Both the position numbers and the translations under genes were made by a program. Of a stretch of DNA of 11,766 bases, positions 2,734-11,766 are shown one piece after another. Every line of letters begins with the position of its first letter. Within the stretch, counting starts at the first letter, position 1. A model generated the notes under the pieces. It saw only the letters and a program-made list of their open reading frames with translations, was not told the origin of the DNA and did not search any database. The stretch spans positions 1 through 11,766 of the forward strand of contig JANWHO010000013.1 of NCBI GenBank assembly GCA_025450375.1, written 5' to 3'. Origin of the DNA: Chloroflexota bacterium. GTDB lineage: Bacteria > Chloroflexota > UBA5177 > JANWHV01.

Positions 2734-3576
2734 TTAGATGTGGTAGATACGCTCGGCGGTCCCGCCCAGCACCGCGGCGATCTCTTGATCGGTCCGCCCG
2801 GCCAGGGCGCGATTCGTCTCGGCCCATACCCGCCCGTAGTCGCCAGCTAGCACGCACACCGGCCAGTCGCTCCCGAACATCAGGCGATCAGCGCCAAAGC
2901 AATCAAAGGCATGATCGATAGAGGGCTTGAGGGTCGCCGCCGACCAGTTTTCGGGGTCGGCGGCGGTATTGAGACCGGAAATCTTGGCATGGACGTTCGG
3001 GTACCGGGCGGCCTCGGCCAATTGGCTCGCCCACGGCTCCATCACTCCGGCTTTGATCGGCGGCTTGGCCAGATGATCGATAACCAAGGTGAGCTCGGGG
3101 AAGAGCGACGCCAGGGTGGGCACGTGCTTCAGATGGTGCGGGAAGACGGCAACTACCTCGAAAATGAGCTTGCGGTCCGCCACGGTTTGCAGCCCGCGGA
3201 GCACCTGGCCCTGCACCACCCAATCGGGATCCGGCTCGTCATGGATCAAGTGGCGGATGCCGCGAAACTTCGGGTGTTCCCGGTAACGGTCGAGCGCTTC
3301 CGCCGCCTCAGCTGGTTTCAGGAGCGGTGCCCAGCCGATTACCGCCCCGATCCAGGGGTACTGGTCGGCCTGCCGCAGCATCGCGTCGGTATCCTCGTAG
3401 GAGTTCGCCGCTTGCACGAGGACGGTGGCGTCTATGCCCGCGGCGTGGAGTTGAGGCTCCAACTCAGGTGGCGCATAGGTGCGGAATAGTGGTCCAAATT
3501 CCGAGGTTAACCATGGGTACGTACCGGTTTCCAGATTCCAAAAGTGTTGGTGGGTATCGATCTTCCTGGTGGCCAT
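2734..3576 (-). CDS. Amidohydrolase-superfamily sugar lactonase (L-fuconolactonase/L-rhamnonolactonase-like)
   Basis: The 280-residue protein is a COG3618-type TIM-barrel amidohydrolase. It carries the N-terminal metal motif HQH (IDTHQHFWNLETGTYPWL), the conserved RGIRHL and LVIDHLAKPP segments mid-protein and GSDWPV with the catalytic Asp near residue 243. This family opens L-fucono-, L-rhamnono- and related sugar lactones to their acids. It is the first gene of a minus-strand operon with the mutarotase and dehydratase, an order matching the oxidative non-phosphorylative breakdown of 6-deoxy sugars (lactone to acid to 2-keto-3-deoxy acid). The ATG at 3576 is preferred over the adjoining GTG at 3579 because GGTGGAG lies at good spacing; one residue is at stake. 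A LacI-type operator at 3610-3623 sits in its leader. Other family members hydrolyse unrelated dicarboxylate lactones, so the substrate is inferred. Confidence 0.88.
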   Translation of the reverse strand: MATRKIDTHQHFWNLETGTYPWLTSEFGPLFRTYAPPELEPQLHAAGIDATVLVQAANSYEDTDAMLRQADQYPWIGAVIGWAPLLKPAEAAEALDRYREHPKFRGIRHLIHDEPDPDWVVQGQVLRGLQTVADRKLIFEVVAVFPHHLKHVPTLASLFPELTLVIDHLAKPPIKAGVMEPWASQLAEAARYPNVHAKISGLNTAADPENWSAATLKPSIDHAFDCFGADRLMFGSDWPVCVLAGDYGRVWAETNRALAGRTDQEIAAVLGGTAERIYHI

Positions 3577-3609: not shown

Positions 3610-3623
3610 CGGGAACGATTGCG
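3610..3623 (-). promoter_or_regulatory. LacI-type operator O2, lactonase operon
   Basis: On the minus strand this reads CGCAATCGTTCCCG, sharing 11 of 14 bases with O1 and differing from TGNAANCGNTNNCA only at the two end positions. A -10-like TATTCT (3629-3624, minus strand) abuts it upstream, without a convincing -35, and the lactonase ATG follows 33 bases downstream. The position suits repression of the lactonase-mutarotase-dehydratase operon. Confidence 0.6.
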
Positions 3624-3710
3624 AGAATACAGGGTTGGCGCGCACCCAAGCCTTGCACGCGCTATGAACGAGGAGTCTGGCATGCGTCTCCTTGGGCCTG
3701 TCATCTGTCG

Positions 3711-3739
3711 TTGAGCGCGGAGCCATGGTAACATAGTTT
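3711..3739 (+). promoter_or_regulatory. Putative lacI-family gene promoter
   Basis: TTGAGC (3711-3716) can act as -35. Two overlapping -10 candidates follow: CATAGT (3732-3737, 15-base spacer) and TAGTTT (3734-3739, 17-base spacer). Both are imperfect. The promoter is supported mainly by the operator starting at 3740, the same geometry as at the lyase promoter. Confidence 0.4.
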
Positions 3740-3753
3740 TGCAATCGTTACCA
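3740..3753 (+). promoter_or_regulatory. LacI-type operator O1, repressor autoregulation
   Basis: TGCAATCGTTACCA matches the LacI-family form TGNAANCGNTNNCA at every fixed position, including the central CpG that the hinge-helix leucine of these repressors contacts. It lies between the divergent lactonase and repressor genes, just after the putative repressor -10. The flanking TGGTAAC (3726-3732) and GTTACCA (3747-3753) are also an inverted repeat, with a 14-base gap. Confidence 0.68.
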
Positions 3754-3827
3754 ATAGAATGGTCCGGCGGATCGCGGGCCGGCTACCTGTCGCGACCGCC
3801 AGGCGCGCGGATGATACGGGAGGGTGC

Positions 3828-4871
3828 ATGGGCGTCACGCTGAAGGAGCTTTCGGACAGCCTGGGGCTCTCCACATCCACGGTGTCGCGAGCCCTGAGCG
3901 GTCGGGAGTTCAAGCGGGCGTCCACCCGTGCCCAGGTGACGAGGATTCTGACGCGGGCGGGGGAGCTTGGCTACGAGCCCAATGGCCTTGCCCGGAGCCT
4001 CAAGACGAAGCGCCGCCGGGTAATCGGACTCATCTTACCGGACATCATGAACGACTACTACGCGGCGGCGGCCACCCAGGTTCAGGCGACCCTGGCAGCG
4101 GCCGGCTATCAGGTCATTCTCTGTGTCACGGGCGACGACCCGGCGATCGAAGCGGCGCAGCGGCGCCTCCTGCGAGAGGAGCGCGTGGCGGGGATGGTGG
4201 TGGTGCCGAGCCCCCAACTGGGACCCGCCCATGGCATGCCAGGCCTCCGGTCCGCCATGCCGGTGATCGAGTTGGTTCGCCACGGCGTTAATTCGCGGGA
4301 CGACGCGGTATTGATTGACGATGTGGATGCCGGAAGGCAAGGTACGGAGCACCTGCTCGGTCTCGGGCATCGCCGGATCGCGGTCCTGACCGGACCAAGT
4401 ACGTTCAGTACGTCGCGCCTCCGTCTCGATGGCTATCGCCAGGCGCTCGGGCAAGCGGGAGTCTCGATCGATCCGGCGATCATTCAATCCGGCCCCTATC
4501 GGCGGGATGCGGCGCGCGTGGCGACCAGCGCCCTGCTCGGAGGGCGCGACCGGCCGACCGCCCTCATCGCCACCAGCAACGAATTGGTGATCGGCGCCTT
4601 GCAGGCGCTCGCCGCCCAGAACCTCCGCGTACCGGAGGACATCTCGCTGGTCGGTTTCGGCAACGCCGACTGGTTCGCGTTGCTTCGGCCCGCGCTCACC
4701 ACGCTCGCGTTGCCCATCCAGGAAATGGCCATGGCGGCGGCGCACCTGTTGTTGAAACGGATCCGTCTGCTCGACGGCCCCAATTCCGCCTACGACACGG
4801 CGCCTATCGTCGCGCGCTACCAGGCGCAACTGATCACGCGCGAGTCAACCCGCCCCCTGGCCGTTTCCTGA
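3828..4871 (+). CDS. LacI/GalR-family transcriptional repressor
   Basis: The 347-residue protein starts with a classic LacI helix-turn-helix (residues 3-25, VTLKELSDSLGLSTSTVSRALSG). The hinge helix (YEPNGLARSLKT, about 50-61) has the Leu that wedges into the operator's central CpG. A periplasmic-binding-protein-like effector domain follows from RVIGLILPD onward, with GHRRIAVLTGP, ALIATSNELVIGAL and the late SLVGFGNADW strand. The ATG at 3828 is chosen over the upstream in-frame start at 3759 because GGGAGG sits four bases before it and the helix-turn-helix begins at residue 3. It diverges from the lactonase operon and faces the permease operon. Four matching operators lie before all four transcription units, so it probably represses the whole locus including itself. 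The inducer is unknown; by context it is a sugar, sugar acid or pathway intermediate. Confidence 0.95.
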   Translation: MGVTLKELSDSLGLSTSTVSRALSGREFKRASTRAQVTRILTRAGELGYEPNGLARSLKTKRRRVIGLILPDIMNDYYAAAATQVQATLAAAGYQVILCVTGDDPAIEAAQRRLLREERVAGMVVVPSPQLGPAHGMPGLRSAMPVIELVRHGVNSRDDAVLIDDVDAGRQGTEHLLGLGHRRIAVLTGPSTFSTSRLRLDGYRQALGQAGVSIDPAIIQSGPYRRDAARVATSALLGGRDRPTALIATSNELVIGALQALAAQNLRVPEDISLVGFGNADWFALLRPALTTLALPIQEMAMAAAHLLLKRIRLLDGPNSAYDTAPIVARYQAQLITRESTRPLAVS

Positions 4872-4903
4872 AGTGGGTTGGCGAAGGACCGGCCGCGGCC
4901 TGC
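4872..4903. other. Short convergent intergenic gap with GC palindrome
   Basis: Only 32 bases separate the stop codons of the repressor and the MalG-like permease. The gap contains the perfect palindrome GGCCGCGGCC (4891-4900) but no stem-loop with a T-run, so transcripts from the two sides probably overlap. Confidence 0.4.
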
Positions 4904-5824
4904 CTATTGGCCTTGCAAGCTGCCGCCCAGCAGCCCGGCCGCCCAGTATTTTCTGACCGCGACAAACAGGATGGCCACAGGCAGGGCGATGAGGAAGGCT
5001 CCGGTGATCACGTCCATGATGCTGATCGCCGAGCCGGCCGCTGAACTTGCCTGACTGCCCAGGGCGGTCTGGGCTGCCATGTTGCCCAATCCTACCGGCA
5101 GCGGCATCAGGTCGTCTCGCGCCTCCATCAAGAAAGGGAGGAAGAAGTTGTTCCAGTTGCTGACGAAGGTGAGCATCGCCACCGTGGCCAGCACGCCACG
5201 GGAGGTTGGGAGCGCGATGAAGCCAAAGATCTGGTATTCATTGGCGCCGTCAATGCGCGCCGCCTGCATAATCTCGCCGCTGAACTGGAAACTGAAGAAG
5301 CTATAGCAGAGCCAGACACCGAAGGCGCTGGCGCTGGTCGGCAGGATCACCCCCCAGGGCGTGTTCACGATGCCGAGCTTCGAGCCTTCCAGATAGATCG
5401 GCACCGCCAGGGTGGTAGACGGAATCAACAGGGCGATAATGGTGATGAACAGCAGCGTCGTACGGCCGCGGAAGCGATACTTCGCCAGACCGAAACCGGC
5501 GGCCGCGCTGGTCACGATGACGATCGCGACGCTCGGGATCGTGTAGAGCAGCGAGTTTTTCGTCCAGGTCAGGAAGATCGAGCTGTTGTAGTTCAGCACA
5601 TGGGTCACGTTGTCCCAGAGGCGAAACGACGAACCAAACCACAACGGTGACGAGGCGAATACGTCTTCCTTCGTCTTCATGCTCGCGACGATCAGCCACA
5701 GCACTGGGGCGAGAAAGTAGTAGCACAGGACGGCGAGTACCGCGGTTACCCCGAGATTGGTCAGGCGGCGGCGAAGGCGATAGTTGGTGGCCGTGGCCTG
5801 CTTTGGCGGCATTACGTTTCGCAT
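4904..5824 (-). CDS. ABC sugar transporter permease, MalG/CUT1 type
   Basis: This inner-membrane permease (306 residues) is one half of the channel of a binding-protein-dependent importer. About six hydrophobic segments are visible, from LGVTAVLAVLCYYFLAPVLWL near the N-terminus to AFLIALPVAILFVAV at the C-terminus. The EAA loop that docks to the ATPase is clear: EIMQAARIDGANEYQIFGFIALP. The ATG at 5824 is preferred because GGGGGA lies eight bases upstream; ATG 5830 is too close to that site and 5812 is also in frame. An open frame continues to 6361 but overlaps the other permease and is not coding there. It is the last gene of its operon, 17 bases after the MalF-like gene, and converges on the repressor gene 32 bases away. 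No ATPase follows, so a shared MsmX-type ATPase encoded elsewhere is probably used. Confidence 0.93.
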   Translation of the reverse strand: MRNVMPPKQATATNYRLRRRLTNLGVTAVLAVLCYYFLAPVLWLIVASMKTKEDVFASSPLWFGSSFRLWDNVTHVLNYNSSIFLTWTKNSLLYTIPSVAIVIVTSAAAGFGLAKYRFRGRTTLLFITIIALLIPSTTLAVPIYLEGSKLGIVNTPWGVILPTSASAFGVWLCYSFFSFQFSGEIMQAARIDGANEYQIFGFIALPTSRGVLATVAMLTFVSNWNNFFLPFLMEARDDLMPLPVGLGNMAAQTALGSQASSAAGSAISIMDVITGAFLIALPVAILFVAVRKYWAAGLLGGSLQGQ

Positions 5825-5841
5825 CTCCATCGTCCCCCGTG

Positions 5842-6786
5842 CTAGTCGCGCTCTTGCAACTGATAGATGCCGGAACGCCAGACAAAAAGGATGGCGAAAA
5901 TGGAGGCGATGAAGAGCAGCAGCATCGCCGCCGCCGCCGCCAGGTTGAAAAAGCCGGATTGGAAGCTGATATTGTAGGCCCACATATTGGGCGTGAAGGT
6001 CGCGGATATCGATAAGGTATTCTGTAGTAGGTATGGTTCCGTAATCAAGGTCAAGACATAGCTGGTCACGCTGACCACCATCAGCACCAGGACCGGCAAG
6101 AGAAGCGGAAGCTTGATGTGCCGGACCACGCCCAGTGCCCCTGCTCCCTCGATCCGCGCCATCTCCACCAACTCTTGCGGTATGCCGGCAAGCGATGCGG
6201 TCAGCACGATCACCCACGCCCCCACGTTCTGCCACACCACGATGTTCATGATCGCGTAGGGCAAGGTGGTTGGGGTGGAGAAAAAGAGAAGATCCTGGGC
6301 GCCGATGCGGTGCAGGAGCGGACCGAACACGCTGGAATCGGGCGAGAAGTTGAATGCCCACAAAATGGTCGAGGCGGTGGCGGGAATGGCAAACGGAAGA
6401 AAGATGAGCAGCTTGATCAGGCCCTTGCCCCAGCCGGCCTTGCTATCGAGGATCAGGGCCACGACCGTGGCGATGATGCAAAAGAGCGGCGCCAAGGTGT
6501 AGACACACCGCCAAATTACCCCTGCTGCCGCCTGGAAGTCCGAGTCGTTGATCACCGCGCCGTAGTTGTTGAGGCCGACAAACTGACCGGTCTGATCGGA
6601 TTGCAGGCTGTTGTACAACGAGTACAAAGCCGGGCCGAGGCTGAACGCGAAGAGCAGGATGAAGAAGGGCGCGACAAACACCCAGGGTGCTACACGGACG
6701 CCGGCCAGGGCCGAGCGCCGGTGCCTGGAGCCGGGGCGAGGGATGAGCGTTCCCTGCGTCTGAGCCGATGTGTCCGTGGTCGCCAT
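5842..6786 (-). CDS. ABC sugar transporter permease, MalF/CUT1 type
   Basis: The 314-residue inner-membrane protein has a long polar N-terminus (about 1-33), a first membrane helix (VAPWVFVAPFFILLFAFSLGPALYSLYNSL) and about five more. An EAA loop (ELVEMARIEGAGALGVVRHIKLP, about 207-229) contacts the ATPase. PWVFVAPFFILLFAFSLGPALYSL is typical of MalF/UgpA-type permeases. The ATG at 6786 has GGGGGA seven bases upstream. It pairs with the MalG-like permease to form the heterodimeric channel and follows the binding-protein gene in the same direction, with a hairpin between them. The large periplasmic P2 loop of E. coli MalF is missing, as in most CUT1 importers of about 300 residues. Confidence 0.93.
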   Translation of the reverse strand: MATTDTSAQTQGTLIPRPGSRHRRSALAGVRVAPWVFVAPFFILLFAFSLGPALYSLYNSLQSDQTGQFVGLNNYGAVINDSDFQAAAGVIWRCVYTLAPLFCIIATVVALILDSKAGWGKGLIKLLIFLPFAIPATASTILWAFNFSPDSSVFGPLLHRIGAQDLLFFSTPTTLPYAIMNIVVWQNVGAWVIVLTASLAGIPQELVEMARIEGAGALGVVRHIKLPLLLPVLVLMVVSVTSYVLTLITEPYLLQNTLSISATFTPNMWAYNISFQSGFFNLAAAAAMLLLFIASIFAILFVWRSGIYQLQERD

Positions 6787-6863
6787 GCGGTTGTCCCCCG
6801 TTCGACCAGGTATACCAGAACGAAGCAGCGTGCGCTAGCCGGTGTATGTGATCCCAGGGCAAG

Positions 6864-6895
6864 CGGTCGGCGCCGCGGAATGGCGGCGCCGACCG
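6864..6895 (-). promoter_or_regulatory. Strong intercistronic hairpin after binding-protein gene
   Basis: A perfect 13-bp inverted repeat (6864-6876 with 6883-6895, core GGTCGGCGCCGC) encloses a six-base loop. It begins 15 bases after the binding-protein stop codon and lies before the MalF-like permease gene. No U-run follows on the minus strand, so a partial terminator or RNA-stabilising element is likelier than a full stop. Such hairpins are known to keep binding-protein mRNA in excess over permease mRNA. Confidence 0.65.
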
Positions 6896-6910
6896 GACGA
6901 GCAGGCCGAT

Positions 6911-8173
6911 TTACTTGACCTTTACGCCTTGCAACTTCAGGTTTGAAATCACCTGGCTCTGCAACTGCTGCAAGGTAGAATGCACGTTCGCGCCGTTGAT
7001 CATCTTGCTGGTAGCGGCAGTGACCTGTAGGTCAACATACGCCTGGTTTGGACTGTAAATCCAACCCGTTCCCGTGCGTTGCGCCGAGAGCGCCAACTGC
7101 TTGGCGACTTCGGTTGGATTAGCGAAATACGGGTCGGGCTGGAAAGCGCCCGCGACATTGTACACCCCGGTAAAGGATGGTACGGTAGCCGCCTGGTGCT
7201 GGAAGGTTGGCGAGGTGCTGCAATAGACGGCAAGCTGCTGCGCCAGGGCGAGGTGCTTGCTTTGCGGCGGGACGTAGAAGGCGCCGCCGCCCCACCACCC
7301 GACCGAAGGCAGCGAGGCGGTAAACGCCCACTGACCCTTTTGCTTGGGATAGCTAGGCTTGATCACATAGGCCCCCAGCCAGTTCGGGCCGACCGCGTAT
7401 GGTACCGTGCCCTGGGAGAAAGCCTTACCGGAGACGGGCTTGGTAGGATCGTCGGGAAGGACGCCGCCGCTCCGCACCGCGGTCACGTATTGGGTCGCCA
7501 GCTTCTCGGTCAGGGGCGTGGCGATGTTGACCGTCCAGCTCCCGTCGCTGTTCAGGGCGAACCACTTGGCGTGGTTGGCCCACGCGAGCCCTTCAAGGGC
7601 CCAGTTGTCGGCGCCAAGCCAGCCGATCGCGTATTTCTTGGTCTTCGCCAGGGTCGCGGCGTCGGCATAGACCTGATCGTACGACGTAGGGATCTTGAGG
7701 CCGGCCGCCTTGATGGTGTTGACGTTCGACCAGATGCCCCAGGCGGCCATGTCGTGCGGCACCCCGATCAGCTTGCCGCCCAGGGTGAGCGGCGCCAGGG
7801 TACCGGGCGCGTACTTCGCGCGTACGGCCGCCGGCACCAGAGCGGAGAGATCGGTGGTGAGGCCGAGTTGGTAGTAGTTCGCCGCGTATTCGACGTTGTC
7901 GAACACAACATCCGGGAACCCGCTGCCGCCGCCGGCGCGCTTGAGCACGTTGAGCTTGGGAATAGGGGCGAGCTGGGTTGTATAAACGACTTTAACCCCG
8001 GGGTGAGAGTTTTGAAAGTCCTGCGCGCAGAGGTTCCGATCCGCCCAGGCCCACATGTTGAGCGTGACCGTCCCCTGTGGGTGCGCCGCGTGCGTGGCCG
8101 CCGGAACCCCGGCGATGGTCAGAGCCAGCATCGCGCCTACGGCGGCGCCGCGCATTTTCGTGCGTTTTTCCAT
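6911..8173 (-). CDS. ABC sugar transporter substrate-binding protein
   Basis: This secreted binding protein of the SBP_bac_1/8 carbohydrate family (420 residues) would deliver its ligand to the two permeases. The N-terminus is a Sec signal peptide: basic MEKRTKMR, hydrophobic GAAVGAMLALTIAGVPAA, and a likely cut after AThA around residue 29. There is no lipobox cysteine, so anchoring must be by another means, or the protein is soluble. Family marks are TLNMWAWADRN, FQNSHPGVKVVYT, PDVVFDN and GKLIGVPHD, followed by GNW-type aromatic-rich patches (WGIWSN, GWWGGGAF) usual for stacking against sugar rings. The ATG at 8173 opens the operon; its ribosome site is weak (GGGAC). A leader of about 155 bases separates it from the predicted transcription start. 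The ligand cannot be read from the sequence. Confidence 0.92.
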   Translation of the reverse strand: MEKRTKMRGAAVGAMLALTIAGVPAATHAAHPQGTVTLNMWAWADRNLCAQDFQNSHPGVKVVYTTQLAPIPKLNVLKRAGGGSGFPDVVFDNVEYAANYYQLGLTTDLSALVPAAVRAKYAPGTLAPLTLGGKLIGVPHDMAAWGIWSNVNTIKAAGLKIPTSYDQVYADAATLAKTKKYAIGWLGADNWALEGLAWANHAKWFALNSDGSWTVNIATPLTEKLATQYVTAVRSGGVLPDDPTKPVSGKAFSQGTVPYAVGPNWLGAYVIKPSYPKQKGQWAFTASLPSVGWWGGGAFYVPPQSKHLALAQQLAVYCSTSPTFQHQAATVPSFTGVYNVAGAFQPDPYFANPTEVAKQLALSAQRTGTGWIYSPNQAYVDLQVTAATSKMINGANVHSTLQQLQSQVISNLKLQGVKVK

Positions 8174-8306
8174 GACTGTCCCGGTTCAGAAATAAATTGC
8201 CGCCCACTAGAGAAGGTCAAACCCCGCGGGGAACGCCTCGCCGTCGTGTCCTCCTTCCGCGGTCCCTCACCGTCCGACACCACCTGTCGCGAACCGGCTC
8301 GCATAT

Positions 8307-8320
8307 CGACATCGTTTGCA
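8307..8320 (-). promoter_or_regulatory. LacI-type operator O3, importer operon
   Basis: The minus strand reads TGCAAACGATGTCG. It fits TGNAANCGNTNNCA except at the last base and shares TGCAAACG with O4. It falls about 10-23 bases downstream of the transcription start predicted from the promoter at 8336-8365, where a bound repressor would block the importer operon. Confidence 0.6.
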
Positions 8321-8335
8321 CTTTTGAGTGGTTTC

Positions 8336-8365
8336 ACTGTATGCGGTTGGCCCGACACTCGTCAA
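8336..8365 (-). promoter_or_regulatory. Sigma-70-type promoter of the importer operon
   Basis: On the minus strand TTGACG (8365-8360, five of six to consensus) is followed after 18 bases by TACAGT (8341-8336, four of six). Transcription would start near 8329 and run into operator O3. The resulting leader is about 155 bases; no riboswitch fold was recognised in it. Confidence 0.58.
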
Positions 8366-8545
8366 GTCTTGGACCGCGCCGATCCCTACTCATTCGAGCC
8401 GCGCCGTCATAAACAAACCGTGTTTCCGCCTTGATAAGAGAGAGGGGACAGTTCCGACCTCCTCCGCGACAGGCCAGTCCGAGTGCCATGAGTGTATCGC
8501 CTCTCGCATGAGTACAGGGTGAAGCGGGCGCCAGCCACGGTATGA
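8366..8545. other. Central part of the divergent importer/lyase promoter region
   Basis: The 441 bases between the binding-protein and lyase starts carry the two promoters and operators O3 and O4. The 180 bases between those promoters contain only a repeated CATGAGT (twice, about 20 bases apart) and no supportable gene or RNA element. Confidence 0.4.
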
Positions 8546-8574
8546 TTGACAGCGCCAGCATCACGGCCTACACT
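8546..8574 (+). promoter_or_regulatory. Sigma-70-type promoter of the lyase/E1 operon
   Basis: A perfect -35 TTGACA (8546-8551), an ideal 17-base spacer and -10 TACACT (8569-8574, four of six) predict a start near 8581, on the edge of operator O4. This also shows that the in-frame TTG at 8546 is a promoter element, not a start codon. Confidence 0.7.
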
Positions 8575-8579
8575 CAATC

Positions 8580-8593
8580 TGCAAACGTTACCG
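8580..8593 (+). promoter_or_regulatory. LacI-type operator O4, lyase/E1 operon
   Basis: TGCAAACGTTACCG differs from O1 at two of 14 positions and fits the LacI-family form except at the last base. It covers the predicted transcription start of the lyase operon, five bases after the -10, which mirrors O1 at the repressor gene. Confidence 0.66.
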
Positions 8594-8614: not shown

Positions 8615-9997
8615 ATGGGTGTACACCTTATCGACTCGGCCCTGTTCGGCGACCAGTTTGGCACCGAGCCAATGCGCCGGATCTTCGCGGATACCGCGGT
8701 GGTTCGCTCCTGGGTCGCCGCGGAAGCGGCTCTGGCCCGCGCGGAGGCAACAGCTGGGCTCATCCCCAGGGAAGCGGCGGCGGCGATTAGCACGCATGGG
8801 GCCGAGTTCACCTGGGATGCCGCCGAACTGGCGACCGGCATAGCCGAAACCTTTCACCCCCTTGTTCCCGCGATCCGCCTGCTAGCCGCGCAATGCGGCG
8901 CCGCCGGGGCGTACGTCCACTGGGGCGCTACGACCCAGGACATCATGGATACGGGAATCGTGCTGCAACTTCGTGATGCTTGCGCGCTCTTGCGCGGCGA
9001 CATGCTGGCGCTACGCGACGCTTGGGCCGGCCTCGCGGCCCACTACCGCGATACGCCGATGCCTGGCCGCACCCACGGCCAGCACGCTCCCCCCGTCACC
9101 TTTGGCTATAAAGTGGCCGTGTGGGTGGCCGAGCTTGGCCGCCATCTCGACCGGCTGGATGCGTGTTTACCGCGTTTGTTGGTCGGTCAACTGGCCGGCG
9201 CATCCGGAACCCTGGCTTCCTTTGGCCCGCACGGGTTGGAGATCCAGCGGTTGATGCTGGAGGATCTCGGGCTGGGCGTGCCGCCGATTGCCTGGCACAC
9301 GGCGCGGGATGGGTTCGCCGAATTCATCGGGATTCTTGGCATGGTCTGCGCGACTCTTGGCAAGGTCGCCCTGGAAGTGATTCACTTGCAGGCCACCGAG
9401 GTGGGCGAGTTGGAGGAACCGTTCGCCATGGGGAAGGTGGGGAGTTCCACCATGCCCCATAAGCGCAACCCCATGATCTGCGAACTGATCGTGGCGCTCG
9501 CCAAGATTGTGCGGCAGGACGCATCGCTGGCCCTGGATACGATGGTGCAGGAGCATGAGCGCGACATGGGCGCCTGGCAAGCGGAATGGGAATTTATTCC
9601 ACGCGCCTGTTTGTTCACGGCGAGCGCGCTCGCCTATTCGGTACGGGTTGCCCAGGGTCTCAAGGTCAACACCGCGAAAATGCGCGAAAATATTGACATC
9701 ACCGGAGGATTGGCCCTGTCCGAGGTGATCATGCTGGAGCTGGGCCGATTCATCGGCCGCCAGGAGGCGCACGAGGTGGTGTATACCGTGTGCATGGGAG
9801 TGGTCGAGCGCGGCGGCTCGTTCCGCGAGGCCCTGCTGGCGGAGCCGGCGGTCAGCGCGCACCTCAGCCCCGATCAGATCGACGAACTCTTGCGCCCTGA
9901 ACGCTATCTCGGGGCGGCGCCGGTTGGGGTCGACCGGGTACTGGCCGCCATCGATCGCGGCGCCGCCGTGGTTCCCGAGCCATTGGCGCGCCTATGA
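8615..9997 (+). CDS. Aspartase/fumarase-superfamily lyase (adenylosuccinate lyase / carboxymuconate cycloisomerase-like)
   Basis: The 460-residue, mostly helical enzyme belongs to the superfamily that eliminates across a C-N or C-O bond to give a fumarate-like product, or runs the carboxymuconate cycloisomerase reaction. The three conserved regions are HWGATTQDIMDTG (102-114), GRTHGQHAPPVTFG (151-164) and the signature loop GSSTMPHKRNP (276-286) bearing the catalytic serine. The ATG at 8615 is chosen over TTG 8546 because the latter lies on the -35 hexamer and ALFGD close to the start matches family N-termini. The ribosome site is weak (GGATGGA). The gene overlaps the E1-alpha start by four bases (ATGA), implying translational coupling. 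THGQHA recalls PurB, but a purine-pathway role is unlikely: the partner genes encode an oxoacid dehydrogenase and the promoter carries the sugar-locus operator. Substrate unknown. Confidence 0.88.
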   Translation: MGVHLIDSALFGDQFGTEPMRRIFADTAVVRSWVAAEAALARAEATAGLIPREAAAAISTHGAEFTWDAAELATGIAETFHPLVPAIRLLAAQCGAAGAYVHWGATTQDIMDTGIVLQLRDACALLRGDMLALRDAWAGLAAHYRDTPMPGRTHGQHAPPVTFGYKVAVWVAELGRHLDRLDACLPRLLVGQLAGASGTLASFGPHGLEIQRLMLEDLGLGVPPIAWHTARDGFAEFIGILGMVCATLGKVALEVIHLQATEVGELEEPFAMGKVGSSTMPHKRNPMICELIVALAKIVRQDASLALDTMVQEHERDMGAWQAEWEFIPRACLFTASALAYSVRVAQGLKVNTAKMRENIDITGGLALSEVIMLELGRFIGRQEAHEVVYTVCMGVVERGGSFREALLAEPAVSAHLSPDQIDELLRPERYLGAAPVGVDRVLAAIDRGAAVVPEPLARL

Positions 9998-10965
9998 GCG
10001 CGCGATGGTCAGGTGAGCGTCTCCTGGGACTCTATCGCGGGATGTATCTGATCCGGCGCTTCGAGGAGCGATGCCTGGAGCTCAGCCGGAAGGGGCTGAT
10101 TCCTGGTTCGGTTCACCTCTGCGTCGGCCAGGAGGCCGTGGCCGTGGGGGCGGCGGACGCCCTGCGGCCCGACGACCTGACGGTGACCACCTACCGCGGC
10201 CATGGCCACGAATTGGCCCGCGGCATCGATCTCAGGGCCGCGATGGCCGAATTGCTGGGCCGGCGGACGGGCCTCTGCAAGGGGAGGGGAGGCTCGATGC
10301 ACCTGACCGATATCAGCCATGGCGTCCTGCCGCCCAACTCGATCGTCGGCGGCGGCTTGCCAATTGCCACCGGCGCCGCGCTGGCCCAGATGCATCAGGG
10401 CCGCGATCGCGTCGTCCTCTGTACCTTTGGCGAGGGTACGCTCAATCAGGGCGGCGCGCACGAGGCGCTCAATTTGGCCGCCATCTGGAATCTACCGGTC
10501 ATCTTTCTGTGCGAGAACAACCAGTATTCGGAGATGACGCCGGCCTATCAGATGATTAAGGGCGACAGCTTTGCCCCGCGGGTCGCGGCGTACGGGATGC
10601 CTACGCACACGGTGGACGGCATGGATGCACAGGCCGTCGCGGAAGCCGTGGCCCCGGCAGTAGCGCGGGCGCGCGCGGGCGCCGGACCGTCGTACGTGGA
10701 GGCGGACACCTACCGCTTCCTCGGTCACTATCAGGGCGATCCCGGCACGGGGTATCGTCCGGCCGAGGAAATCGCGCGCTGGCGGGAACGCGATCCGTTA
10801 CCCAGGCTGGCCGAGTCGCTTGCCGCCCAGCCTGGATTCGCGCGGCGACTGGAGGCCGAGGAACAGGCGGTCGAGGAGGCGCTGGGCGCGGCGCAACAAG
10901 CGGCGCTTGAGGATCCGTGGCCATCCCGGGACGAGATCGAGGAGGGGCTGTATGCCGCCGGCTAG
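9994..10965 (+). CDS. TPP-dependent 2-oxoacid/acetoin dehydrogenase E1 component, alpha subunit
   Basis: This 323-residue subunit binds thiamine diphosphate and, with the beta subunit, decarboxylates a 2-oxo acid or cleaves acetoin, passing the acyl group to an E2 lipoyl enzyme. Family landmarks in order: RRFEERCLELSRKGLIPGSVHLCVGQEA (21-48), TYRGHGHELARG (66-77) with active-site histidines, GRGGSMHL (97-104) and the TPP/Mg motif GEGTLNQGGAHEALN (146-160) ending at ENN (174-176). The usual GDG is GEG here, a conservative change at a metal ligand. Length and the GRGGSMH loop are closer to acetoin-dehydrogenase or branched type E1-alpha than to longer pyruvate forms. It overlaps the lyase stop by four bases and the beta gene by 14, so the three are one operon. 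E2 and E3 are not in view and the oxoacid is unknown. Confidence 0.93.
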   Translation: MSARWSGERLLGLYRGMYLIRRFEERCLELSRKGLIPGSVHLCVGQEAVAVGAADALRPDDLTVTTYRGHGHELARGIDLRAAMAELLGRRTGLCKGRGGSMHLTDISHGVLPPNSIVGGGLPIATGAALAQMHQGRDRVVLCTFGEGTLNQGGAHEALNLAAIWNLPVIFLCENNQYSEMTPAYQMIKGDSFAPRVAAYGMPTHTVDGMDAQAVAEAVAPAVARARAGAGPSYVEADTYRFLGHYQGDPGTGYRPAEEIARWRERDPLPRLAESLAAQPGFARRLEAEEQAVEEALGAAQQAALEDPWPSRDEIEEGLYAAG

Positions 10966-11766
10966 CGTCTCGAACCCGGTTGATGCCGCGACCCGTGTGT
11001 TAACCTATGCCCAGGCGCTCAATCTGGCGCTGGCGGAGGAACTGGAGCGTGACCCGTCGGTCATCCTGCTGGGCGAGGATATTGGCGCCTACGGGGGCGT
11101 GTTCGGGGTGACGCGCGACCTGCAATCGCGTTTCGGCGCCGGACGGGTGCGGGATACGCCAATCTCTGAGACCGGCTTTCTCGGATGCGCGGTGGGCGCC
11201 GCGATATGCGGACTCCGGCCGGTCGCGGAAATCATGTTCGTCGATTTTACCCTGGTCGCCCTGGATCAAATCGTCAACCAGGCGGCGAAATTGCCGTTCC
11301 TCACCGGAGGGCAAGTGCAAATGCCGCTGGTGTTCCGCACCCAACAGGGCGCGCGCCCCGGCACCGCCGCGCAGCACTCACAGTGCCTGGAGGCGATATT
11401 CGCCCATGTGCCGGGTCTGAGGGTGGTGGCGCCGGCCACGCCGGCGGACGCGCGCGGATTGTTAAAGTCAGCCATTCGCTCCGATGATCCGGTCCTCTTT
11501 TTGGAGCACAAGGGCCTCTATGCCACCAGTGGTCCGATCCCGATCGAGGAGCAGCTCGTACCGCTTGGCAAGGCTAACGTCGTCCGCGCGGGCAGCCAGG
11601 TCACCGCCCTGACCTATTCCGCGATGCTGCCGGTCGTAATGGCCGCCGCCGACGCCCTGGCGGCGGAGGGAGTCTCGGTGGAGGTGATCGACCTGCGAAC
11701 CCTGGCGCCCCAGGACCAGGAGACCATCGTGGCCTCGGTCAAACAGACCAATCGGGTCGTGGTGAT
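10952..11766 (+). CDS. TPP-dependent 2-oxoacid/acetoin dehydrogenase E1 component, beta subunit (partial, runs off the window)
   Basis: This frame starts inside the end of the alpha gene and is open to the last base, giving 271 codons of an expected 325 or so. The ATG at 10952 has GGAGGGG four bases upstream. Clear E1-beta landmarks follow: LTYAQALNLALAEELERDP, LLGEDIGAYGGVFGVTRDL with the TPP-activating Glu, RVRDTPISETGFLGCAVGAA, FVDFTLVALDQIVNQAAKL, QHSQCLEAIFAHVPGLRVVAPATP and PVLFLEHKGLY. From VRAGSQVTALTYSAML onward it is the C-terminal transketolase domain that docks to E2. The active-site His is present in QHSQ. RTQQGARPGTAAQHS departs from the common R(T/M)P(Y/N)GGG loop before that His. 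With the alpha subunit it forms the alpha2beta2 E1 enzyme. The missing end and any E2 gene lie to the right. Confidence 0.92.
   Translation, partial: MPPASVSNPVDAATRVLTYAQALNLALAEELERDPSVILLGEDIGAYGGVFGVTRDLQSRFGAGRVRDTPISETGFLGCAVGAAICGLRPVAEIMFVDFTLVALDQIVNQAAKLPFLTGGQVQMPLVFRTQQGARPGTAAQHSQCLEAIFAHVPGLRVVAPATPADARGLLKSAIRSDDPVLFLEHKGLYATSGPIPIEEQLVPLGKANVVRAGSQVTALTYSAMLPVVMAAADALAAEGVSVEVIDLRTLAPQDQETIVASVKQTNRVVV

Follow-up and report, generated by a model that had tools for sequence, protein, structure and literature searches.

The stretch analyzed here (11,766 nucleotides of contig JANWHO010000013.1 from a Chloroflexota bacterium, hereafter the window) very likely carries a local, autoregulated LacI-family regulon of four transcription units. 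This confidence, drawn from predicted sites and their conservation, applies to the regulon and not to the pathway that it would control. As inferred from gene order, the units comprise a lactonase, a mutarotase and a dehydratase (- strand), the repressor (+), a solute-binding protein with two permeases (-), and a lyase with the alpha and beta subunits of a thiamine-diphosphate E1 enzyme (+). A sequence-only reading of this DNA had proposed four sites fitting the pattern yGCAAwCGwTnyCr, one before each unit and none elsewhere, and all of this was borne out. Exact matches lie at all four positions, their coordinates and the gene order place one ahead of each unit, and the remainder of the window holds no exact match, none at one mismatch and seven at two. 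The predicted operators are as follows.

3610 to 3623, - strand: lactonase unit, CGCAATCGTTCCCG, with the ATG 33 bases downstream
3740 to 3753, + strand: repressor gene, TGCAATCGTTACCA, with the ATG (3828) 74 bases downstream
8307 to 8320, - strand: importer, TGCAAACGATGTCG, with the ATG 133 bases downstream
8580 to 8593, + strand: lyase/E1 operon, TGCAAACGTTACCG, with the ATG (8615) 21 bases downstream

The sites have an even form with a central CG and are imperfect palindromes, 6 to 10 of their 14 positions being equal to the reverse complement. The likeness to the LacI-family form TGNAANCGNTNNCA that had been claimed for them stood only in part: the site at the repressor promoter fits it fully, but the remaining three have a final G, and the lactonase site has an initial C as well. 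Counting all matches at up to two mismatches gave 11 in the window, compared with 5.35 +/- 2.39 expected, a number reached in 5 of 200 shuffles; this count is circular because the pattern was built from these same four sites. Matrices made from three sites and used to find the fourth ranked the lactonase site 4th, the repressor site 4th, the importer site 5th and the lyase site 2nd among 23,506 positions, and the importer site was the sole case in which a position outside the four sites ranked higher.

A repressor scan of a species-representative genome collection returned nine loci, two of them close and the others at 25-35% identity. The closest relative (locus L001) is Chloroflexi metagenome-assembled genome (MAG) RYN_337 (genome G001), with a repressor 71% identical to that of the window; the second (L002) is Thermogemmatispora carboxidivorans (genome G002), at 61%. 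L001 keeps the gene order from the mutarotase and lactonase through E1 beta, with identities of 70% for the mutarotase, 76% for the lactonase, 84% and 80% for the permeases (4904 to 5833 and 5842 to 6786, respectively), 84% for the solute-binding protein, 85% for the lyase and 78% for E1 beta. Conservation of the sites in relatives had been set beforehand as a test, and all four are kept in L001, where the window pattern has exactly four exact matches in 13.9 kb, all at orthologous positions, and none at one mismatch. The L001 operators preserve 13 of 14 bases at the lactonase, importer and lyase units and 14 of 14 at the repressor, compared with 106 of 215 and 197 of 390 equal aligned positions (49-51%) in two spacers outside the sites, and the spacing of 21 bases between operator and lyase start is the same. 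The matrix built from the window placed the orthologous sites at ranks 1 to 4 of 27,748 positions in L001, while in 200 Markov resamples the mean number of hits at that score was 0.005 and the largest 1. It is therefore extremely improbable, in our judgment, that the four sites are functionless chance matches. Such an explanation draws on the first pattern having been derived from the sites themselves and on degenerate matches being common, and counts at two mismatches are indeed not enriched in L001 (10 versus 8.42 expected) and little enriched in L002 (12 versus 7.46). Recovery in the leave-one-out analysis, the four orthologous sites in L001 and conservation well above that of the spacers all argue against it.

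In L002, where identities to the window are 66% for the mutarotase, 67% for the lactonase, and 70% for both the lyase and E1 beta, the intergenic region of the divergent importer and repressor holds two exact sites. A repressor promoter seen there by eye (TTGACA-17-TATACT) abuts the operator TGCAAACGTTACCA. Genome G060 carries the same two sites, and since the genes compared share 93-100% identity with their L002 counterparts it does not constitute independent evidence.

The position of the sites relative to promoters agrees with a role in repression. A scan for sigma-70-type promoters, which reports consensus matches only, found four versus 1.5 expected, among them the following two.

8546 to 8574, + strand: promoter-like site of the lyase operon, TTGACA-17-TACACT, both hexamers kept in L001
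8336 to 8365, - strand: promoter-like site of the importer, TTGACG-18-TACAGT

These end 5 bases (lyase) and 15 bases (importer) ahead of the respective operator. The operators are thereby predicted to coincide with the transcription start or to lie just beyond it, as would suit repression. The sequence-only reading had claimed this placement for the importer, lyase and repressor promoters; the first two were recovered by the scan, which missed the repressor promoter, and for the latter the claim stands by eye only, from an extended -10 element, TGGTAACAT, at 3726-3734 that is kept in L001 and lies 5 bases ahead of the operator. We infer binding, repression and induction from this arrangement: with no inducer, the repressor would occupy one operator per unit, at or just past the transcription start, and block all four units, and it would be released upon import of a sugar or sugar acid by the ATP-binding cassette (ABC) importer.

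Random scatter of many matches over the genome had been named as grounds for refuting the sequence-only reading. When the exact pattern was run against the genomes of the two relatives, matches were few and concentrated at the locus, with seven in G001 (4.4 Mb), four of them at the locus, and five in G002 (5.6 Mb), two of them at the locus; reversed-pattern controls gave none and two, respectively. Five of the six exact matches elsewhere fall in mechanically called open reading frames (ORFs) of 345 (L010), 805 (L016), 482 (L018), 407 (L011) and 194 (L015) codons, and the sixth (L013) lies outside ORFs of at least 120 codons and inside three ORFs of 67-105 codons. This concentration bears on whether the sites serve another LacI-family regulator, such as a global CcpA-like protein, rather than the neighboring repressor. 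The form of the sites resembles the general LacI-family type, whose central CG is described as common to most motifs of the family in the main text of a comparative study (PMC4052901). However, a regulator acting globally should have sites at many promoters, and one site stands at the promoter of the repressor itself in the window, in L001 and in L002, so that we regard control by another regulator as very unlikely.

Two extensions of the motif were tried and rejected. One-mismatch matches to the variant TGCAANCGTTNYCR were considered as additional regulon members, and their counts were close to those of the reversed-pattern control. The motif also could not be carried over to further lactonase clusters: none of nine loci (L052-L060) has an exact match, L052, L056, L057 and L058 have a single one-mismatch match each, and in seven of them (all except L054 and L060) the best matrix scores were 10.8-13.3 compared with at least 16.5 for the L001 sites, the matrices being slightly different. 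Separately, two one-mismatch sites of the TGTAAACGTT type were observed 3.5 kb apart on contig C131 of G001 (at 12786 and 16267); these are perhaps operators of a different LacI-family repressor.

The genes of the four units, with the Pfam or NCBIfam matches that identify them, are the following.

1202 to 2290, - strand: enolase-superfamily acid-sugar dehydratase of the mandelate racemase/muconate lactonizing type (PF13378, 226.5 bits; PF02746, 63 bits), probably the third gene of the lactonase unit
2398 to 2721, - strand: RhaM-family sugar mutarotase (PF05336, 117.9 bits, cut-off 23.4)
2734 to 3576, - strand: fuconolactonase-like lactonase, amidohydrolase 2 (PF04909, 168.8 bits); ATG at 3576, with a GTG one codon upstream
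3828 to 4871, + strand: LacI/GalR-family repressor (PF13377 and PF00532, over cut-off)
4904 to 5833, - strand: ABC importer permease, MalG/UgpE-like (PF00528)
5842 to 6786, - strand: ABC importer permease, MalF/UgpA-like (PF00528)
6911 to 8173, - strand: ABC importer solute-binding protein (PF01547, 71.4 bits)
8615 to 9997, + strand: lyase of the fumarase/adenylosuccinate-lyase superfamily (PF00206, 170.6 bits; PF10397, 72.2 bits)
9994 to 10965, + strand: thiamine-diphosphate E1 alpha subunit (PF00676, 255.7 bits)
10952 to 11764, + strand: E1 beta subunit, cut by the window end (NCBIfam NF006667, 330.9 bits, passing the cut-off of 321)

Both the ribose repressor 9ny7 and CcpA align with the window repressor over nearly its full length (3-313), and the best NCBIfam model of the latter is RbsR (178 bits, below the cut-off of 382). 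The LacI DNA-binding domain PF00356 scores 23.3 bits (E 5.5e-05), 3.7 bits under its cut-off of 27. L001 retains both the recognition-helix stretch, STSTVSRA, and the hinge, ARSLK, and L002 differs by one residue (SPSTVSRA). The helix-turn-helix region (3828-3990) is three residues longer than that of a 45% identical relative (L030), directly after the recognition helix. The type of importer differs between loci that share this repressor and have the lyase/E1 genes beside it, being MalFG/SBP_bac_1 in the window (4904-8173) and L001 and ribose-like in L002 (5793-9613), where the binding protein was assigned to Peripla_BP_4 by profile and the permease and ATPase by eye. At the window edge, a tyrosine recombinase/phage-integrase family gene (110-1087, +; PF00589, 84.5 bits) may mark a mobile segment or may be unrelated.

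The sequence-only reading had also tied the lyase and E1 genes to the sugar genes through the shared predicted signal, and this was upheld both by the conserved sites and by gene order in relatives. In L002 the lyase and E1 genes lie behind the importer genes, with a short-chain dehydrogenase and a glyoxalase-fold protein next in line, and downstream of the repressor are a Gfo/Idh dehydrogenase, the lactonase and the mutarotase; in L001 a Gfo/Idh gene of 71% identity, truncated at the contig end, comes after E1 beta. Searching 400 Chloroflexota genomes at E 1e-70, we found the lactonase in 20, at 21 places, of which we opened 12. Among the eleven at 57% identity or more (two places in G001, and one each in G002, G060, G319, G037, G063, G305, G326, G284 and G241), several of which are cut by contig ends, the lyase is near the lactonase in five (G001, G002, G060, G305 and G326), E1 in four (G001, G002, G060 and G319), and neither was found in five (G037, G063, G284, the second G001 place and G241). 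The mutarotase accompanies the lactonase and lyase in G305 and G326 and was not found in the G319 stretch. Ten places have a lactonase of less than 50% identity; the one opened (G222, 47%; L060) has neither lyase nor E1 in its 6.6 kb contig. The lyase itself was detected in 8 of the 400 genomes at E 1e-130, beside the lactonase in five of them. Of 120 listed protein relatives of the lyase, 26, a few of which are fragments, reach at least 70% identity. All of its relatives on plasmids (92 records) are below 60% identity, and a scan of IMG/VR with the lyase gave no relative. In other lactonase-mutarotase clusters we observed a methionine-synthase-like protein (PF01717) in L057 (7501-9557) and, in L057 (7501-9557) and L055 (534-1490), a neighbor of about 320 residues without a Pfam match, nor an NCBIfam match in L057, the sole locus scanned for it.

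Alternatively, the lyase and E1 could merely be located here and belong to housekeeping or aromatic metabolism, the lyase as an adenylosuccinate lyase or carboxymuconate cycloisomerase and E1 as that of pyruvate dehydrogenase. The lyase does pass the purB equivalog (TIGR00928), although narrowly (329 versus 326.2 bits), and the nearest solved chains to E1 alpha are those of pyruvate dehydrogenase E1 alpha. However, three other NCBIfam models score higher with the lyase than purB does (XcbD 474, PRK08937-type 460 and PcaB-type 442 bits, each under its own cut-off). Its nearest solved chain is 3c8t, a fumarate lyase, followed by carboxymuconate cycloisomerases and trans-aconitate decarboxylase. 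Moreover, the operon has its own predicted operator in both the window and L001, and its linkage to sugar genes recurs in other architectures. The neighborhood of E1 is also unlike that of its paralogs. As the window ends inside E1 beta, we judged the presence of an E2 gene in relatives, with distances read from two tables: no PF00198 (E2) match was found beside the sugar-locus E1 in any of four genomes (G001, whose contig ends 1.85 kb past E1 alpha, G002, G060 and G319), compared with 12 of 14 E1 alpha paralogs (E 1e-25) in G001, G002 and G319 that have such a match within 5 kb; in G060 the figure was 5 of 7. In addition, EMTP follows the ENNxY(S/A) of the cofactor site in all four sugar-locus E1 alphas (window, L001, L002 and L052) and in none of 14 paralogs, two of which have E(Y/F)TP. 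A phylogenetic tree groups these four E1 alphas with support of 42/27 and in 46% of bootstrap trees, which is only suggestive, and we did not retain a single clade for them. On balance we consider the housekeeping explanation unlikely; the lyase, E1 and sugar enzymes probably act in one unmapped route of sugar degradation, as judged from predicted operators and gene linkage.

What this route degrades can be stated less firmly. The lactonase and mutarotase favor an oxidative deoxy-sugar route, and the substrate may be a 6-deoxy sugar such as L-fucose or a relative, which we put just short of an even call. The sugar would be mutarotated, oxidized to a lactone by a Gfo/Idh or short-chain dehydrogenase such as those seen in relatives, opened by the lactonase and dehydrated to a 2-keto-3-deoxy acid, the route being oxidative and non-phosphorylated, and the E1 pair and lyase would carry out the late steps in place of the hydrolase or aldolase of known routes. 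No terminal hydrolase or aldolase for the keto acid was found among the window genes scanned with Pfam and NCBIfam, in a window that is cut and with no genome-wide search made. A serious possibility, somewhat below even, is that the regulon is real and its substrate is not a 6-deoxy sugar. Candidates would then include hexose diacids, anhydro-sugars and other aldoses with acids that the lactonase and dehydratase can handle. The dehydratase points in this direction. Its best NCBIfam model is TalGalacDh (talarate/galactarate dehydratase; 310 bits, below the cut-off of 500), and its nearest solved chains are 2og9, 2ovl and 2pp0, with 243 bits for 2og9, 241 for 2pp0 (talarate/galactarate dehydratase) and 231 for 5xd7 (3,6-anhydro-L-galactonate cycloisomerase), far above the 127 bits of 1yey (L-fuconate dehydratase). 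With the L-rhamnonate dehydratase model at 97 bits versus 393, it does not score as an L-fuconate or L-rhamnonate dehydratase. The lactonase and mutarotase also stay below the NCBIfam equivalog cut-offs for fuconolactonase (220 versus 400 bits) and rhamnose mutarotase (TIGR02625; 37.5 versus 99.6). Nevertheless, L-fucono-1,5-lactonase is still the only NCBIfam family matched by the lactonase, the mutarotase belongs to the RhaM family and passes PF05336, and both genes are present in three relatives with this repressor. In a bolder reading, the regulon would mark an undescribed Chloroflexota pathway of oxidative sugar-acid degradation, in which a stand-alone E1 alpha/beta would cleave a (di)keto-deoxy sugar acid without E2 and E3 and the fumarase-superfamily lyase would act on a neighboring intermediate, together replacing the hydrolase/aldolase ending; this proposal is speculative and rather unlikely as a whole.

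Several observations weigh against the regulon or the route as proposed. Repressor orthologs of at least 60% identity occur in 3 of the 400 Chloroflexota genomes, two of which are near-copies, and the conservation thus rests on two independent loci. In L002 the lyase is preceded only by a two-mismatch site that could be chance, and its tie to the regulon comes from the importer genes that precede it. Good motif matches are lacking in the clusters of G319, G305 and G326. Distant regulon members may be among the six exact matches that G001 and G002 have outside the locus, and TGCAANCGTTNYCR with one mismatch gave 107 matches versus 76 in the control (G001) and 81 versus 74 (G002). The dehydratase step is not conserved, as the gene in the corresponding slot of L001 (2038-3129) is only 34% identical to 1202-2290 of the window in loci that are otherwise 70-85% identical, and no dehydratase was found in the L002 stretch; a non-orthologous swap in the slot behind the mutarotase is possible. 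Finally, the lyases of G305 and G326 (52-53% identity) may represent a separate association, because lyases of 55-59% identity in G284, G202 and G114 are not beside a lactonase and those of G305 and G326 are no closer to the window lyase than these three.

If the regulon operates as predicted, the shared operator would serve as a functional label that places the lyase and the E1 pair in one sugar-acid pathway, where automatic annotation would name them adenylosuccinate lyase (or carboxymuconate cycloisomerase) and pyruvate dehydrogenase. It would also make the pathway testable by a single repressor/effector screen.

We found no description of this gene combination in the literature searched, most subscription journals lying outside the search. 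With pyruvate and acetoin dehydrogenase E1 (Pfam E1_dh) the E1 pair shares alpha and beta subunits and the cofactor-site pattern G(D/E)G...ENN, and it differs in the lack of an E2 gene near the sugar-locus E1 in relatives and in the EMTP of the alpha subunits. The oxidative L-fucose route of Xanthomonas campestris reportedly uses an enolase-superfamily dehydratase, the superfamily of the window dehydratase, although the latter is not closest to L-fuconate dehydratase. As outlined in PMC5507952, that route has a fuconolactonase-type lactonase and assigns its last two steps to COG0179 and COG1028; short-chain dehydrogenases (COG1028) are found in the relatives studied here, whereas no COG0179-type hydrolase is among the genes we identified, and an E1 pair and a lyase are present instead. 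Within the same phylum, the RhaR and RhmR systems of Chloroflexus (PMC3870299) also concern deoxy-sugar use, with a LacI-family RhmR for an oligosaccharide operon, but in the account given there rhamnose is degraded through an isomerase, a kinase and an aldolase-dehydrogenase, and RhaR is of the DeoR family. The closest resemblance in regulatory terms is to the local LacI-family sugar regulons surveyed in PMC4052901, about 1-2% of which are from Chloroflexi. According to the main text of that survey, the motifs are mostly even palindromes with a central CG, over 75% of the sites are found 30-140 bases upstream of the start codon, and autoregulation applies to more than three quarters of the local regulators. 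The window shares the even palindrome with central CG, the autoregulation (predicted here), and the combination of an importer with catabolic enzymes, and its site distances fit the same range except at the lyase (21 bases). No such enzyme set appears in the passages of the survey that were consulted, and the words fucose and rhamnose are absent from its main text. The regulatory design is thus ordinary, and the enzyme set is not.

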